Shown one piece after another: positions 3,056 through 24,628 of a DNA stretch of 44,636 nucleotides. This stretch comes from Ignavibacteriales bacterium. Its GTDB lineage: Bacteria > Bacteroidota > Ignavibacteria > T3Sed10-11. Numbering within the stretch: position 1 is the stretch's first letter; every line of letters starts with the position of its first letter. Position numbers and translations under genes: made by a program. The DNA lies in NCBI GenBank assembly GCA_003567775.1, contig PWYR01000096.1, positions 1 through 44,636 of the forward strand, given 5' to 3'. Below the pieces are notes generated by a model. The model was not told the origin of the DNA. It did not search any database and worked only from the letters and a program-made list of their open reading frames with translations.

Positions 3056-3142
3056 GGTGGAATTTTTTATGAGGACTGGTTATATTATTTCTTAAGCAAA
3101 GATGGCAACGAAGAATATTCTTTGCAATGAGGAGCCGGCGCT

Positions 3143-4003
3143 GTGCATCATTTAACACACAGAACGAAATGTCAAGAGAAGTCCCATTTTCCCCGAGACT
3201 TTTTTTATCTTCCGCTCGTTGTGTCGATCTTGTTTTGCAAGTTGACTTTTACTCAGGATGATCCTACCGGTACAATAAGCGGTAAAGTTGTGGACAGCAT
3301 ATCGGGCGATCCTATTCCAAATGTTAACATCGTCATTACAGGAACTTCCATCGGGACTGCTACAAATGAAGAGGGAGAGTATTTAATCCGTCAAATACCG
3401 GCGGATATGCAAACCGTCGTTTTCACACATATAGGATATGTAACACACCGTCACACCCGTAACATCTATACCGGATCGGATGTTGTTTATAATGTAACGT
3501 TATATCCCGACCATATACGACTCGAAGAAGTTGAAATAATCGGTGATACAACCGACAGACATATCCGAAGACGCGCTGCAGGAAGTAATTTAATCACCGG
3601 GACACAAATTGAGAGGTCGGGTGTCAATACATTTGGCGATTTGGTCAGACATCTAATTCCTCTGGCTACAGTGCAGGAGGAAGGAGCCAATTTATATATT
3701 TCCCTTCTTCGTGCTACTTCTCTCGTCCGACGGTATCATGGAGATAATAATCCACTCATAATCATTGACGGACTCAGGTACGGCGCCAGCCCGTTCGGTT
3801 TGGCAAATATCGTTTCCGTTGATCGGATAGAAAAATTGGAGGTAATACGAGGCCCGGCTGCGATGAGATATGGTGTCGATGCGCGTCATGGCGTCATAAT
3901 AATCGATACAAAACCCTCGCCGATATCTGCCGAAAGTATTTTTGGTACGTATAAAATAATCATTGCAGTTACGCTCGGTCTGTTGATGTTTTTCCTTTTT
4001 TAA
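3143..4003 (+). CDS. Carboxypeptidase-regulatory plus TonB-plug domain protein without a beta-barrel
   Basis: The 286-residue protein starts at a GTG preceded by GAGGAG. It has an N-terminal hydrophobic segment around residues 20-35 that could be a signal peptide. Next comes a CarboxypepD_reg-like domain (GTISGKVVDSISGDPIPNVN through the ATNEEGEY region). After that comes a plug domain (NTFGDLVRHL, then PLIIIDGLRYG and IEKLEVIRGPAAMRYG). SusC-type TonB receptors continue with a long barrel of about 700 residues. Here the protein instead stops after a hydrophobic C-terminal segment (IIIAVTLGLLMFFLF). No frameshifted barrel follows, so it looks like a stand-alone protein rather than a broken receptor. 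A role in outer-membrane transport or sensing is inference. Confidence 0.75.
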   Translation: MHHLTHRTKCQEKSHFPRDFFYLPLVVSILFCKLTFTQDDPTGTISGKVVDSISGDPIPNVNIVITGTSIGTATNEEGEYLIRQIPADMQTVVFTHIGYVTHRHTRNIYTGSDVVYNVTLYPDHIRLEEVEIIGDTTDRHIRRRAAGSNLITGTQIERSGVNTFGDLVRHLIPLATVQEEGANLYISLLRATSLVRRYHGDNNPLIIIDGLRYGASPFGLANIVSVDRIEKLEVIRGPAAMRYGVDARHGVIIIDTKPSPISAESIFGTYKIIIAVTLGLLMFFLF

Positions 4004-4060
4004 TGTAACATTAAAGCGGCATAATCGTATAAGAAAATAAAAATATGGGATAGTATAATC

Positions 4061-4462
4061 ATGACAGAACATACTCTTCACTGCCCCCGCTGCGGACATC
4101 ATAACTCTACCGACAGCAGATTTTGTAATAAATGCGGCAATGCACTTGTTGCGGACGCTGCTGCAACTGCCGTATCGCCTTCACAAAGCGCCGGCTCAAA
4201 AGCGATTATTTCTCTAATCCTCGGCATTTTATCGATATTTATGCTTGGTTTTCTTGCGGGGATTCCCGCCATGATACTGGCAAAGCACGAGGAAGATGAA
4301 ATCCGGCAAGGAAGATCCCCCGTTGCCGGTGAAATGCTTGCGAAACTCGGTTTCTGGCTCGGCTTAATCGGGACAGTATTGTCCGGATTAACCGTCTTAT
4401 TTATAATATTCATTATATTCTTTGGATTGAGTTTTCCATTAATTTTTAGTTGTGCCCTTTAG
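4061..4462 (+). CDS. Zinc-ribbon and DUF4190-type membrane protein
   Basis: The 133-residue protein begins with a zinc ribbon (CPRCGHHN at residues 8-15, FCNKCGNAL around 24-32). An Ala/Ser-rich linker follows, then two hydrophobic segments separated by KHEEDEIRQGR, the arrangement of DUF4190 proteins. It is probably a small inner-membrane protein with a cytoplasmic zinc ribbon; no biochemical role is known to me. It lies 57 bases after the plug protein and 21 bases before the ECF sigma gene, which may place it in that transcript. The similar double-ribbon design recurs in the TPR protein at 18021. Confidence 0.7.
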   Translation: MTEHTLHCPRCGHHNSTDSRFCNKCGNALVADAAATAVSPSQSAGSKAIISLILGILSIFMLGFLAGIPAMILAKHEEDEIRQGRSPVAGEMLAKLGFWLGLIGTVLSGLTVLFIIFIIFFGLSFPLIFSCAL

Positions 4463-4483: not shown

Positions 4484-5137
4484 ATGCGTCTAACAAAACA
4501 TAATAAACAAGCACTGAAATCTGAACAGCCGAAAGAGTACATGTACGCTGTATCGGCACGGGTCATAGAACCGGTATCGGAATTATCCGATGAAGATCTG
4601 GTACGCCAATTTCAAGAGGGAAACAAAGACGCATTTCGATTGTTGGTCGAACGGAATCAGGATAAAGTGCGTTCAATTATTTTGTACACAATGAATCGCG
4701 ACGACCTTGTGGACGATATAGCACAGGATGTTTTTATTAAAGTGTACAAAGCACTCGATCAATTCCGTTTTGAATCAAAATTTTATACGTGGATTTACCG
4801 GATAACCATTAATAAGTGCAGAGATGAGCTTCGAAAGCGAAAGTGGAAAAAGTTTATTTCATTAAATAATTCTCCACCGTACGATTCGCCTAAGAATCTC
4901 AGTGAGTTGACAATCGAACAAAAACATAACGACTTTAAGGATTTCATTCGCCTGGCTTTACAAAAACTTCCCGATCGGCACCGGGAGATTATCGTATTGA
5001 AAGATATCGAAGATTATACATACGAAGAAATTGCCGATATACTACAATGCGAGATGGGAACGGTAAAATCGCGTCTCTCGCGAGCCCGGACAGCATTGCG
5101 CAAGATACTTGAACCATATATAACCGAAGAGGCATGA
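4484..5137 (+). CDS. RNA polymerase sigma factor, ECF subfamily
   Basis: The gene encodes a 217-residue sigma-70 family factor with only regions 2 and 4. Region 2 includes DDIAQDVFIKVYKALDQF and FYTWIYRITINKCRDELRKR. Region 4 includes LPDRHREIIVLKDIEDYTY and GTVKSRLSRARTALRKIL. The first 19 residues are not typical, and an in-frame ATG at 4541 preceded by GAAAGAG is a credible alternative start. The stop overlaps the downstream anti-sigma start as ATGA, so the two are translationally coupled. A regulon cannot be deduced from the sequence. Confidence 0.92.
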   Translation: MRLTKHNKQALKSEQPKEYMYAVSARVIEPVSELSDEDLVRQFQEGNKDAFRLLVERNQDKVRSIILYTMNRDDLVDDIAQDVFIKVYKALDQFRFESKFYTWIYRITINKCRDELRKRKWKKFISLNNSPPYDSPKNLSELTIEQKHNDFKDFIRLALQKLPDRHREIIVLKDIEDYTYEEIADILQCEMGTVKSRLSRARTALRKILEPYITEEA

Positions 5138-6687
5138 ACCGCAAGCGTAAATACGAGGAATTAATTTCAGCATATATCGACGATACGTTGAATGAGAAGG
5201 ATAAACAATTTGTCGAAGAAACGCTTCTGCGTGACCCGGAGTGGAGGAAGCGGTATGACCAGATGTATAGAGTACGGTCGGAAATGCGTTCACTGCTTTC
5301 CTCGGAACAACGCCAGTCGCTGTGGCCTTCATTATCCCGACGTATTAAACAGGAAGAACGAAAATCCGAAAAGATTGAATTTATTCCCGCGAAGTTTGTG
5401 CCTGTTATAACCGTGCTTGCGATGATTGTGGTCGGACTTGGTTCATTTATGATTACACGTAATTGGGATGCCGTAACTGCATACTTTGACGATACACGCG
5501 CGGTTGTTGAAGATATTTACGAACAGGGGATAGTACGGGGTGCGTTGCAACCGCTGTTTCAGGGCATTACCGACGATGATCTAATCCGGTTTGCGTTCAG
5601 CGGTGTGCTCGAGATTCCGGAATCGGACGGCCAGAGTCTTACAGTCGAAAGTGAAACGGGCGACCAATACGAACTCGAGTTTGCAGATGCAAGCATGGCT
5701 AAGGAGGTACCCTCGCTATCGGAACTTTATTCCGATCTTAATGTGACAATCGAGCAAAAACAATCTATAGATTCTGTGTTAACGAACTTTAAAAATGTTG
5801 TCCAATCGTCAGCATTTATTGCCGACGATTTAGAAGTCGTTTTGAGTCCGGAGCTGGCCGGTTTGGATAGGTTTATTATTGCATCGATTGCAGAGCAATT
5901 AGCGCCGGAACAACGAATTATACTTAACAAAGTGCTTAATCGGTTCAATCCCGAAATATCCGTGCCTGCTGTAGGACCATTTCCGCATTTTGTCGCTTAT
6001 ACCGACCACTCCGGTGCACAAATCGAGGTGAAGATTCCGCAATCACCCGACGGTGTGCAGCCGCAAGTCCGGGTAGAAGTACGGGATCGTGAAAGAGAAG
6101 TGAAATATCCTCAAGTTGCAGCGAAAACGAATGTGCGAACCTTTATCGTCGTACGTCCCGATACGGTAATAACGAGAGAATTCGAGATTCCCGATTTCGG
6201 TCAATTAGCTGCACAACGCGTCGATGCGGAAAAAATACGTCGTAAAGTCCGTGAAGAATTTGCTAAATCGCTTCATAATACTCGAATAAATATTAAACCT
6301 CAAATTGATATACACCACGACGGACAAAGTGTTCAGGTTATAACACGTGTCGATCGTCCGGGTGAACCCGGTGAAGTCCATAGACATATGGTAAAGCATG
6401 ATTCCTTAATGCTTAATCAATTTCACGAAGAGCATTTCATCCGTTTGCGTGAACTATCGAAGATAATGATGCAGCGGATTCCCGAATTCGTCGGCCAGGA
6501 TACAATCAGGATACCGCAGGGGTTCAGCCCATTCGATGAATCATTCGAAGAGAGAATGCAGCAACTCGAATACGATTTGAACCAGCTTGGTGAGAGATTG
6601 GAGAAGATGGTTGAAGAGCCGGCGAATTTTATTTTTATGCAGGACTCCATCTTTTTCCATTTATTCCCGGATACACTTTATCGATAA
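5134..6687 (+). CDS. Large membrane-anchored anti-sigma factor
   Basis: The 517-residue product starts with a cytoplasmic helical domain (ISAYIDDTLNEKDKQFVEE, LLRDPEWRKRYDQM) resembling anti-sigma zinc-finger domains, but it has no Cys or His ligands there. A single membrane segment lies near residues 88-107 (FVPVITVLAMIVVGLGSFMI). About 400 residues of predicted periplasmic sequence follow, rich in charged residues and heptad-like stretches at the end (MQQLEYDLNQLGERLEKM). Four-base overlap with the sigma gene strongly supports the partner role. No sensory domain family was recognised in the large ectodomain. Confidence 0.78.
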   Translation: MNRKRKYEELISAYIDDTLNEKDKQFVEETLLRDPEWRKRYDQMYRVRSEMRSLLSSEQRQSLWPSLSRRIKQEERKSEKIEFIPAKFVPVITVLAMIVVGLGSFMITRNWDAVTAYFDDTRAVVEDIYEQGIVRGALQPLFQGITDDDLIRFAFSGVLEIPESDGQSLTVESETGDQYELEFADASMAKEVPSLSELYSDLNVTIEQKQSIDSVLTNFKNVVQSSAFIADDLEVVLSPELAGLDRFIIASIAEQLAPEQRIILNKVLNRFNPEISVPAVGPFPHFVAYTDHSGAQIEVKIPQSPDGVQPQVRVEVRDREREVKYPQVAAKTNVRTFIVVRPDTVITREFEIPDFGQLAAQRVDAEKIRRKVREEFAKSLHNTRINIKPQIDIHHDGQSVQVITRVDRPGEPGEVHRHMVKHDSLMLNQFHEEHFIRLRELSKIMMQRIPEFVGQDTIRIPQGFSPFDESFEERMQQLEYDLNQLGERLEKMVEEPANFIFMQDSIFFHLFPDTLYR

Positions 6688-23009: not shown

Positions 23010-23570
23010 GTGGTATCTGATCACGAAGATAATGAATTAATAGACCGTTTTCTGGATGGAGATGAGCAGGCATTCAATTTGCTTGTCCGGAAACATCAGG
23101 ATTTTGTGTATAATATTACCCGGAAGATAACCGGAAATCATGAAGATGCAATAGAAACAGCACAGCGGGTTTTTGTGAAAATGTATGACCGGCTTGCGTC
23201 ATTTACAAAAGCATCGGCATTTTCAACATGGTTGTACAGGGTTGCAACGAATGAATCGTTAAATGTAATCCGATCGAGGCGTTTTAAAAAATGGTTCAGC
23301 TTCGATGATGCGGAAAAAGAACTCCGCGATACTGCAATAAACCCGTTTGAAGCATTGGTGGAAGAGGAAAAAAAAGAACAACTCGATCGTGTGGTCCGGA
23401 CGTTACCAGACCGGCAGCAAACGGTGTTCATGTTGCGTATGAGTGAAGGATTGTCATACGAGGAAATTGCCGATGTCCTCGGTGTCAGTCAAGGCAGTTT
23501 AAAGGCATCATTTTTTCATGCAGTCAATAAAGTAACAAAAGCACTTGGGAAAATATATGAAAAATCATAA
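23010..23570 (+). CDS. RNA polymerase sigma factor, ECF subfamily
   Basis: The GTG-started 186-residue factor has region 2 (FNLLVRKHQDFVYNITRKITGNHEDA, FSTWLYRVATNESLNVIRSR) and region 4 (LPDRQQTVFMLRMSEGLSYEEIADVLGV, GSLKASFFHAVNKV). The usual region-4 motif VKSRL is GSLKASFFHA, a frequent variant in Bacteroidota ECF factors. It overlaps the next gene, a zinc-finger anti-sigma factor, by 14 bases. It is the first gene of a three-gene sigma/anti-sigma/Spy-like unit distinct from the cluster at 4484. Confidence 0.92.
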   Translation: MVSDHEDNELIDRFLDGDEQAFNLLVRKHQDFVYNITRKITGNHEDAIETAQRVFVKMYDRLASFTKASAFSTWLYRVATNESLNVIRSRRFKKWFSFDDAEKELRDTAINPFEALVEEEKKEQLDRVVRTLPDRQQTVFMLRMSEGLSYEEIADVLGVSQGSLKASFFHAVNKVTKALGKIYEKS

Positions 23571-24147
23571 GGATTGTGAAATAATCCGCCGGAGGATTGA
23601 AGAAGGTATTATAGGAACTGCTGCGATCGACCGTTCGGAACTAAACGACCACATGCAATCGTGCAGCGACTGCCGGACATATGCGGCGCAATTAGAGACG
23701 CTCTCTGCAATTTCAAATGTTCGCTATACGCTGCCTGCACATGAACGCGGAAGCTTTTCAGCAAAAGTGCGCACCCGAATTGAAGATCAAAAAACCTCAC
23801 GACGGAAACCCGCTTTTATAGCACAACCGGCATTTCAGATAGTCGTATTGATTATGATTATTGTATCGGTTGCATTATATCTTATCAATACCGAACCGGC
23901 CCCGGTGTTTGTTGTTGAATGGGACAATATTGAATATTTAAATGAATATACCTTTTATTATGATGATATGATTATTCCCGATAACGGGATAATCATTGAT
24001 TTGTATGCGGAAACTTTGTTCGGCGAGGATTTCTATCACGATGATTTCCGGGACGCCGGTTATTTCGACGATGAATATTATTATACTATAGATCTATTGT
24101 CACCCGAAGAAATTGAAGATATCATCCAACGAATGGAAGGGGCTTAA
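23557..24147 (+). CDS. Zinc-finger anti-sigma factor with acidic ectodomain
   Basis: The ATG at 23557 (MKNHKDCEII) is preferred over the TTG four codons upstream. Residues 1-45 hold the anti-sigma zinc-finger core with HMQSCSDC (H32, C36, C39). One membrane segment lies near residues 93-110. The ectodomain of about 85 residues is packed with Asp, Glu, Tyr and Phe (for example EDFYHDDFRDAGYFDDEYYY) and has no family I recognise. The 14-base overlap with the sigma gene supports the partner assignment. The acidic surface could bind metal ions or the basic Spy-like protein encoded next; that is inference. Confidence 0.82.
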   Translation: MKNHKDCEIIRRRIEEGIIGTAAIDRSELNDHMQSCSDCRTYAAQLETLSAISNVRYTLPAHERGSFSAKVRTRIEDQKTSRRKPAFIAQPAFQIVVLIMIIVSVALYLINTEPAPVFVVEWDNIEYLNEYTFYYDDMIIPDNGIIIDLYAETLFGEDFYHDDFRDAGYFDDEYYYTIDLLSPEEIEDIIQRMEGA

Positions 24148-24151
24148 AAGC

Positions 24152-24628
24152 ATGGTGCGTTTAACGTCATTATTGATATTTCTTTTGTTGTTTGTCCAGG
24201 CGGATGTTTTCACACAGCAGCGTCATCAGCGCATGCAGGAGGGCCGCGATCGTATCGAAACCTTGCGGCAGGTGAAAATGATCGAAGCGTTGAACCTCGA
24301 TGAGGAAACCGCTGCCCGGCTATCCGTATTTTACAAGCGGCATCAGGATAAAATACGGGATTTACATCAGGAAATAGAAAATCTGATCGACGAACTTGAA
24401 TCGGCGATCGATGAGGATAAACCGGACAATGTGCTGCGGCAAATTCGATCCGGCATTAACGAAAAACGAAATACTATACATGAGAACAGAGTCAATTTGT
24501 ACCTGGAGATCGAAGACATACTTACGCCGCGTCAGGTTGCGAAACTTATTGTGTTCGAGAGGAACTTTAATCGGGACTTGCGTCAAATTATGCGTGAAGT
24601 GCAGCGTGACCGGCGGCGCGGCAGGTGA
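24152..24628 (+). CDS. Spy/CpxP-like periplasmic protein
   Basis: The ATG at 24152 is chosen over the track start because it gives a clean signal peptide (MVRLTSLLIFLLLFVQADVF). The mature protein is all-helical and charged, with an LTPRQVAKL motif of the LTxxQ type seen in Spy/CpxP/CnrX proteins. It ends in a strongly basic tail (RDRRRGR). These proteins are periplasmic chaperones or metal/stress sensors. Its position directly after an ECF sigma/anti-sigma pair recalls CnrYXH-type signalling. The family call is by pattern and moderately sure. Confidence 0.7.
   Translation: MVRLTSLLIFLLLFVQADVFTQQRHQRMQEGRDRIETLRQVKMIEALNLDEETAARLSVFYKRHQDKIRDLHQEIENLIDELESAIDEDKPDNVLRQIRSGINEKRNTIHENRVNLYLEIEDILTPRQVAKLIVFERNFNRDLRQIMREVQRDRRRGR

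Follow-up and report, generated by a model that had tools for sequence, protein, structure and literature searches.

Barrel-less plug proteins with a predicted C-terminal membrane anchor form a small family, very probably derived from SusC-type TonB-dependent receptors, in a genus of Ignavibacteriales

The plug gene occupies positions 3143-4003 (plus strand, as for all features of this gene and of the operon behind it) of the 44,636-nt stretch of DNA that was analysed here, referred to as the window. It encodes a barrel-less plug protein of 286 amino acids and starts with a GTG codon, which is used by all four orthologues. In front of the gene we detected a promoter-like element (GGAATTTTTTATGAGGACTGGTTATAT, 3059-3085), which is a pattern match only. 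The underlying pattern GGAA[AT]-N-[CG]TTATA has a single match in the window when both strands are scanned, and its end lies exactly 58 nt 5' of the GTG in 4 of 4 orthologues. A promoter motif common to the paralogues of the gene was looked for and not found. Directly behind the plug gene follow genes for a zinc-ribbon/DUF4190 membrane protein (4061-4462; PF13828 and PF13240), an ECF sigma factor (4484-5137; Sigma70_r2 and r4_2) and an RseA-like anti-sigma factor (5134-6687; weak RseA_N and zf-HC2 matches). This confirms the gene order given in an earlier reading of the DNA that used its letters alone (the sequence-only reading).

Residues 1-38 of the protein (3143-3256), ending in TFTQ, make up the signal peptide region. 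A hydrophobic segment is found here in all 14 near-complete members of the family described below; the predicted cleavage site reads FAQ, VAQ or EAQ in the orthologues, and the signal peptide is probably cleaved. It is followed by an N-terminal extension (NTE) with a carboxypeptidase-regulatory-like fold (residues 44-125, 3272-3517), assigned by Pfam as CarbopepD_reg_2 (PF13715, residues 45-130, 6e-20) and by Foldseek, which matched it to the SusC NTE domain 9hfj with a TM score of 0.78 by target. A TonB-box-like linker, EEVEIIG (residues 128-134, 3524-3544), aligns with the DEVVVTG/A of full-length receptors and leads to the plug domain (residues 149-257, 3587-3913), which is detected by Pfam (PF07715, residues 149-251, 2e-10) and in Foldseek matches the plugs of FepA, PfeA and Cir. 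The protein ends with a predicted transmembrane helix (residues 263-286, 3929-4000). Neither a barrel (PF00593) nor an STN domain (PF07660) was found in the Pfam search of the window protein. Thus, the carboxypeptidase-regulatory-like domain, the plug and the hydrophobic tail in place of a barrel, all described in the sequence-only reading, were borne out. The best NCBIfam match is TIGR04056 (SusC/RagA; residues 44-258 of the protein), the alignment covering only the first 205 of the 981 model positions, and the nearest solved structures in the PDB are SusC homologues and RagA. An AlphaFold2 model, built like our other structure predictions on 14 sequences only and with a pTM of about 0.41, gave pLDDT values of mostly 80-93 for NTE and plug, while residues 126-142 appeared disordered.

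AlphaFold2 predicts a helix for the final ~20 residues (GTYKIIIAVTLGLLMFFLF; 263-285, pLDDT about 86), and the model of one paralogue looks alike, with its terminal helix at 268-288. A transmembrane-like segment stopping 0-3 residues before the stop codon is present in all 13 members with a complete C-terminus, answering the question of tail conservation raised by the sequence-only reading. The best 17-residue Kyte-Doolittle mean of this tail ranges from 1.8 to 2.9 in the 13 complete plug-only proteins, compared to -0.7 to 0.8 at the corresponding place in full-length receptors. From member to member the tail differs in sequence and stays constantly hydrophobic, in keeping with a membrane anchor. 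Since all 13 complete members combine a signal peptide with a single transmembrane helix at the very C-terminus, the simplest topology suggested by sequence and model is a periplasmic NTE-plug held at the inner membrane by its tail. Basic residues are found just ahead of the tail helix. According to the positive-inside rule, a basic flank is expected on the cytoplasmic side, and the basic residues therefore do not appear to fit this topology well.

The protein is not a single case. Besides the orthologues, the genomes of the genus contain 10 further near-complete barrel-less paralogues and at least two fragments. Searching for plug-only proteins of similar length, as the sequence-only reading had proposed, yielded 14 near-complete members of 267-296 amino acids. 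Against the family profile they reach 333-404 bits, and no full-length receptor of the genus exceeds 129 bits. In 14 of 14 members the NTE (PF13715) is followed by the plug (PF07715), and barrel (PF00593) and STN domain were absent from all 14 in the Pfam search. In a tree of NTE and plug, built without the tail, all 14 plug-only proteins form one clade (100/100) against 21 receptors, showing that the family has a single origin. We are highly confident that these proteins represent a small, selectively maintained family of barrel-less plugs derived from SusC-type TonB-dependent receptors.

Searched with a profile including the tail, 143 genomes from the rest of the class yielded no member; the best match outside the genus reached 46 bits, compared to 120-149 bits inside, and none extended to the end of the model. 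Two short-frame matches were rejected as members, one being a receptor cut by the contig end (G033:C19) and the other an NTE-containing protein without a plug (G017:C36). In 297 genomes of the phylum only receptor-type matches occurred among the best 8 candidates per genome. The best matches on plasmids were full-length-type receptors or unannotated places (two, H6 and H19), and no relative was found in viral contigs. The named records are uncultured Ignavibacteriales MAGs; from their CSSed/T3Sed isolate names they are read as assemblies from soda-lake sediment. In one genome of the genus (G002) we noticed a further fragment of a plug-only gene at a contig end (C273, 18264-18404), lying tail-to-tail with the copy on the same contig, and another N-terminal fragment on C409. 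No description of barrel-less, membrane-anchored plug proteins was found in open-licence PubMed Central texts; short plug-domain proteins may be annotated elsewhere and unstudied.

Compared to SusC/RagA receptors (TIGR04056; PF13715, PF07715 and PF00593), the family preserves the order of signal peptide, NTE, TonB-box position and plug, but it lacks the C-terminal 22-strand barrel, carries the terminal transmembrane helix instead and branches as a separate clade. Further differences are found within the shared part. The Gly of the IRG motif is present in 21 of 21 receptors and in none of the 14 plug-only members, its Arg in 18 of 21 and 1 of 14, respectively. In FhuA, the plug arginines R93 and R133 lock onto the barrel (PMC11658791). 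All 14 members retain the second arginine (R236 in the window protein, assigned by motif). The apical loop comprises exactly 18 residues in every member, compared to 14-33 in receptors. At the TonB-box position a segment is present and predicted to be disordered, with the consensus changed from VVVT to VEVV. Instead of the receptor DEVVVTG/A, almost all members show the family signature E-x-[VIM]-E-[VI]-[VI], with E131 in 13 of 14 and V/I133 in 14 of 14. The loss of the Arg-Gly pair, the invariant R236, the fixed apical loop and the altered TonB box indicate, as judged from the alignment, that the plug core is kept and the barrel-related features are lost. Colicin M loses its activity when its TonB box carries a Glu (V6E; PMC11658791). 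By analogy, the altered consensus indicates that TonB binding may be lost in the plug-only family. The isolated plug of FepA (Usher et al. 2001, PMC11658791) is likewise a plug without a barrel, but it is a laboratory construct and behaves as a largely unfolded protein (PMC11658791), whereas the plug-only proteins are natural, conserved and predicted to be membrane-anchored. Given the behaviour of the FepA plug, the folding of a free plug would not be assured.

The descent of NTE and plug from a SusC-type receptor is what would be expected of a decayed or truncated receptor, i.e. a pseudogene that has lost its barrel and ends in a hydrophobic stretch by chance. Several observations argue against it. 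When 21 different full-length receptors were searched against the window, their alignments were confined to about 3134-3967, with none farther downstream near the gene, and the reading frames are intact; the absence of a barrel remnant and of a frameshift truncation, already noted from the sequence alone, thus held. Orthologues with the same architecture are located at the same chromosomal site with 69% (G002), 56% (G005) and 53-54% (G003) identity; of the G004 orthologue, which is cut by a contig end, the tail alone is visible (GTYRILAAVILGIFMFFIF and stop). Counting this tail, an orthologue is found at this site in 5 of 6 genomes of the genus. The sequence-only reading had held that close relatives with a barrel at this locus would mark the gene as a decayed receptor. 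None carries one: four relatives have the barrel-less gene (one seen as tail only) and in one the site is empty. Between the window and G002, dN is 0.19 and dS 1.31 (Nei-Gojobori), and the resulting dN/dS of about 0.15 shows purifying selection at the level of the sequence. In G003, where the nuo operon is seemingly deleted to remnants, the plug gene has stayed intact, and so have those following it. With 14 near-complete proteins of one clade sharing the architecture, and with the tail, start codon, promoter-like element and its 58-nt spacing all conserved, we rejected decay as an explanation; it is hardly tenable.

An ECF-type promoter (TGTAAC-N16-CGTA, 4004-4029) starts immediately 3' of the plug stop codon. 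Its motif is perfectly spaced, and with spacers of 16-17 nothing else in the window matches on either strand. The promoter is found in all six congeners, also in the one where the plug gene is missing, with one base changed in G002 (CGTAAC). It lies ahead of the zinc-ribbon/sigma/anti-sigma operon, which is probably autoregulated, and it may be used for finding the regulon. The order nuoF, plug, zinc-ribbon, sigma, anti-sigma is found in G000, G002 and G005 (in the last of these, the contig breaks off within the zinc-ribbon gene). G001 has no plug gene at this site, and its zinc-ribbon, sigma and anti-sigma genes stand directly behind nuoF. In G007 and G035, which belong to a different family, sigma and anti-sigma genes come after nuoF without plug and zinc-ribbon. 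Because the pair stands behind nuoF without a plug in these three genomes, gene order indicates that it is older at this site than the plug gene. The plug gene adjoins the zinc-ribbon/sigma operon in 5 of 6 congeners, including G003 after the loss of nuo. In the corresponding region of G003 (L035, C536, 1195-1929) the complex I operon is seemingly deleted, with putative remnants of the nuoA start and the nuoF end; an assembly error is possible. The zinc-ribbon/DUF4190 protein is regarded as a neighbour of the plug system. A second ECF sigma/anti-sigma pair, followed by a Spy/CpxP-like periplasmic protein recognized by eye, is located at 23010-24628 of the window.

The paralogues are found in a different context. 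SusC and/or SusD genes are present on 6 of the 8 contigs carrying a paralogue. As the genomes of the genus contain one receptor per roughly 120 kb, a chance co-occurrence is unlikely (rough estimate below 1e-4). Among the paralogues, several form divergent pairs with a SusC gene or face a SusCD-lipoprotein operon in convergent orientation. The window copy lies outside SusCD loci and is the one copy at a conserved chromosomal site.

Our overall best reading, with a probability of about 0.4, is an inner-membrane, tail-anchored periplasmic plug that modulates TonB-dependent uptake by SusCD systems. The protein would be secreted by the Sec pathway by means of its signal peptide and anchored in the inner membrane by the helix at its extreme C-terminus. 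The plug would then be located on the periplasmic face, presumably beside ExbB/ExbD/TonB, where NTE, linker and plug might act in trans by contacting TonB or the N-terminal region of a cognate SusC. In this way the protein could modulate SusCD uptake, e.g. as a decoy, competitor or parking site for TonB. Action on the Ton/SusCD system in trans is suggested by the NTE and the TonB-box-like segment, the putative tether to the inner membrane and the position of the genes beside SusCD loci. TonB_C proteins are present in 6 of 6 genomes of the genus, with 3-8 matches each. In Bacteroides thetaiotaomicron, both the NTE and the TonB box of SusC are required for function, and the NTE has been implicated in the interaction with TonB (PMC7782687, PMC12204202). 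The altered TonB box is the weak point of such a mechanism, and the location of the window copy away from SusCD loci counts against it as well. We infer the inner-membrane location, the contact with TonB and the direction of the effect, and regard the modulation of TonB/SusCD, taken on its own, as possible and somewhat doubtful. More specifically, barrel-less plugs might be natural brakes on TonB, i.e. inner-membrane regulators capturing TonB or the N-terminus of a cognate SusC, with separate paralogues for individual SusCD loci allowing locus-specific control of the energy supply to the outer membrane; this is an unlikely, more speculative version.

Three other functions have to be weighed against modulation of SusCD uptake. 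The gene order had led the sequence-only reading to imply a functional pairing with the sigma/anti-sigma genes, and FecA/FecR/FecI signalling as well as the SusCs of ECF-controlled PULs likewise have a plug-bearing gene adjoining those of an ECF sigma and an anti-sigma factor. An anchored plug could respond to changes in the envelope or in TonB and control the anti-sigma factor, and direct adjacency in 5 of 6 congeners, kept in G003 after nuo loss, is in line with such a sensor or co-regulator. This pairing did not stand up to synteny, promoter conservation and domain content, and we consider it quite unlikely. An obligate linkage is not seen, as G001, G007 and G035 have the pair without a plug gene; the sigma operon has a promoter of its own behind the plug stop codon; and most paralogues lie at SusC/SusD loci away from sigma genes. 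Furthermore, the Pfam search found no FecR domain in the anti-sigma factor, and the plug protein has neither STN domain nor barrel, unlike STN/FecR-type systems. The occurrence of the pair without a plug, the separate promoters and the absence of STN and FecR argue against classical cell-surface signalling, as far as can be read from gene content. A weaker regulatory link may still exist, as the adjacency is kept in five congeners. An even less probable role is that of a trans-acting plug supplied to outer-membrane barrels or assisting the assembly of SusC. The compact plug core and the SusC genes next to paralogues speak for it, but the terminal helix would hold the protein in the inner membrane, and the Arg-Gly motif contributing to barrel locking is lost in 14 of 14 members. 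Equally improbable is an inner-membrane-anchored protein for ligand binding or scavenging, whose plug would hold SusCD-delivered substrate in the periplasm. Weak binding of its siderophore has been reported for the isolated FepA plug (Usher et al. 2001, in PMC11658791), and several paralogues per genome stand beside different SusCD loci. However, a diversified binding site would not be expected to look like the substrate-facing apical loop, which is short and conserved and has the same length throughout the family.

The plugs of TonB-dependent transporters have so far been studied as parts of a barrel. Natural free plugs tethered to a membrane offer a route to asking what NTE, TonB box and plug do alone, and the plug-only family a route to asking whether barrel-less competitors beside SusCD genes control TonB-powered uptake. 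From the comparison across genus and class it is also clear that a position next to an ECF sigma/anti-sigma pair can be a misleading clue.

Two further kinds of genes were observed around the paralogues. Small putative lipoproteins of 180-206 amino acids, two of them with weak DUF6252 matches, are encoded convergent with or adjoining plug-only genes (L036, 7047-7601; L037, 2425-2967; L038, 3724-4320; L040, 439-1059). IS1595-type zinc-ribbon proteins of ~285 amino acids adjoin SusCD and plug-only genes at L040 (2047-2907) and L049 (5990-6841). A weak DDE domain was recognized in the L040 copy, and both proteins are possibly domesticated transposase-like regulators.
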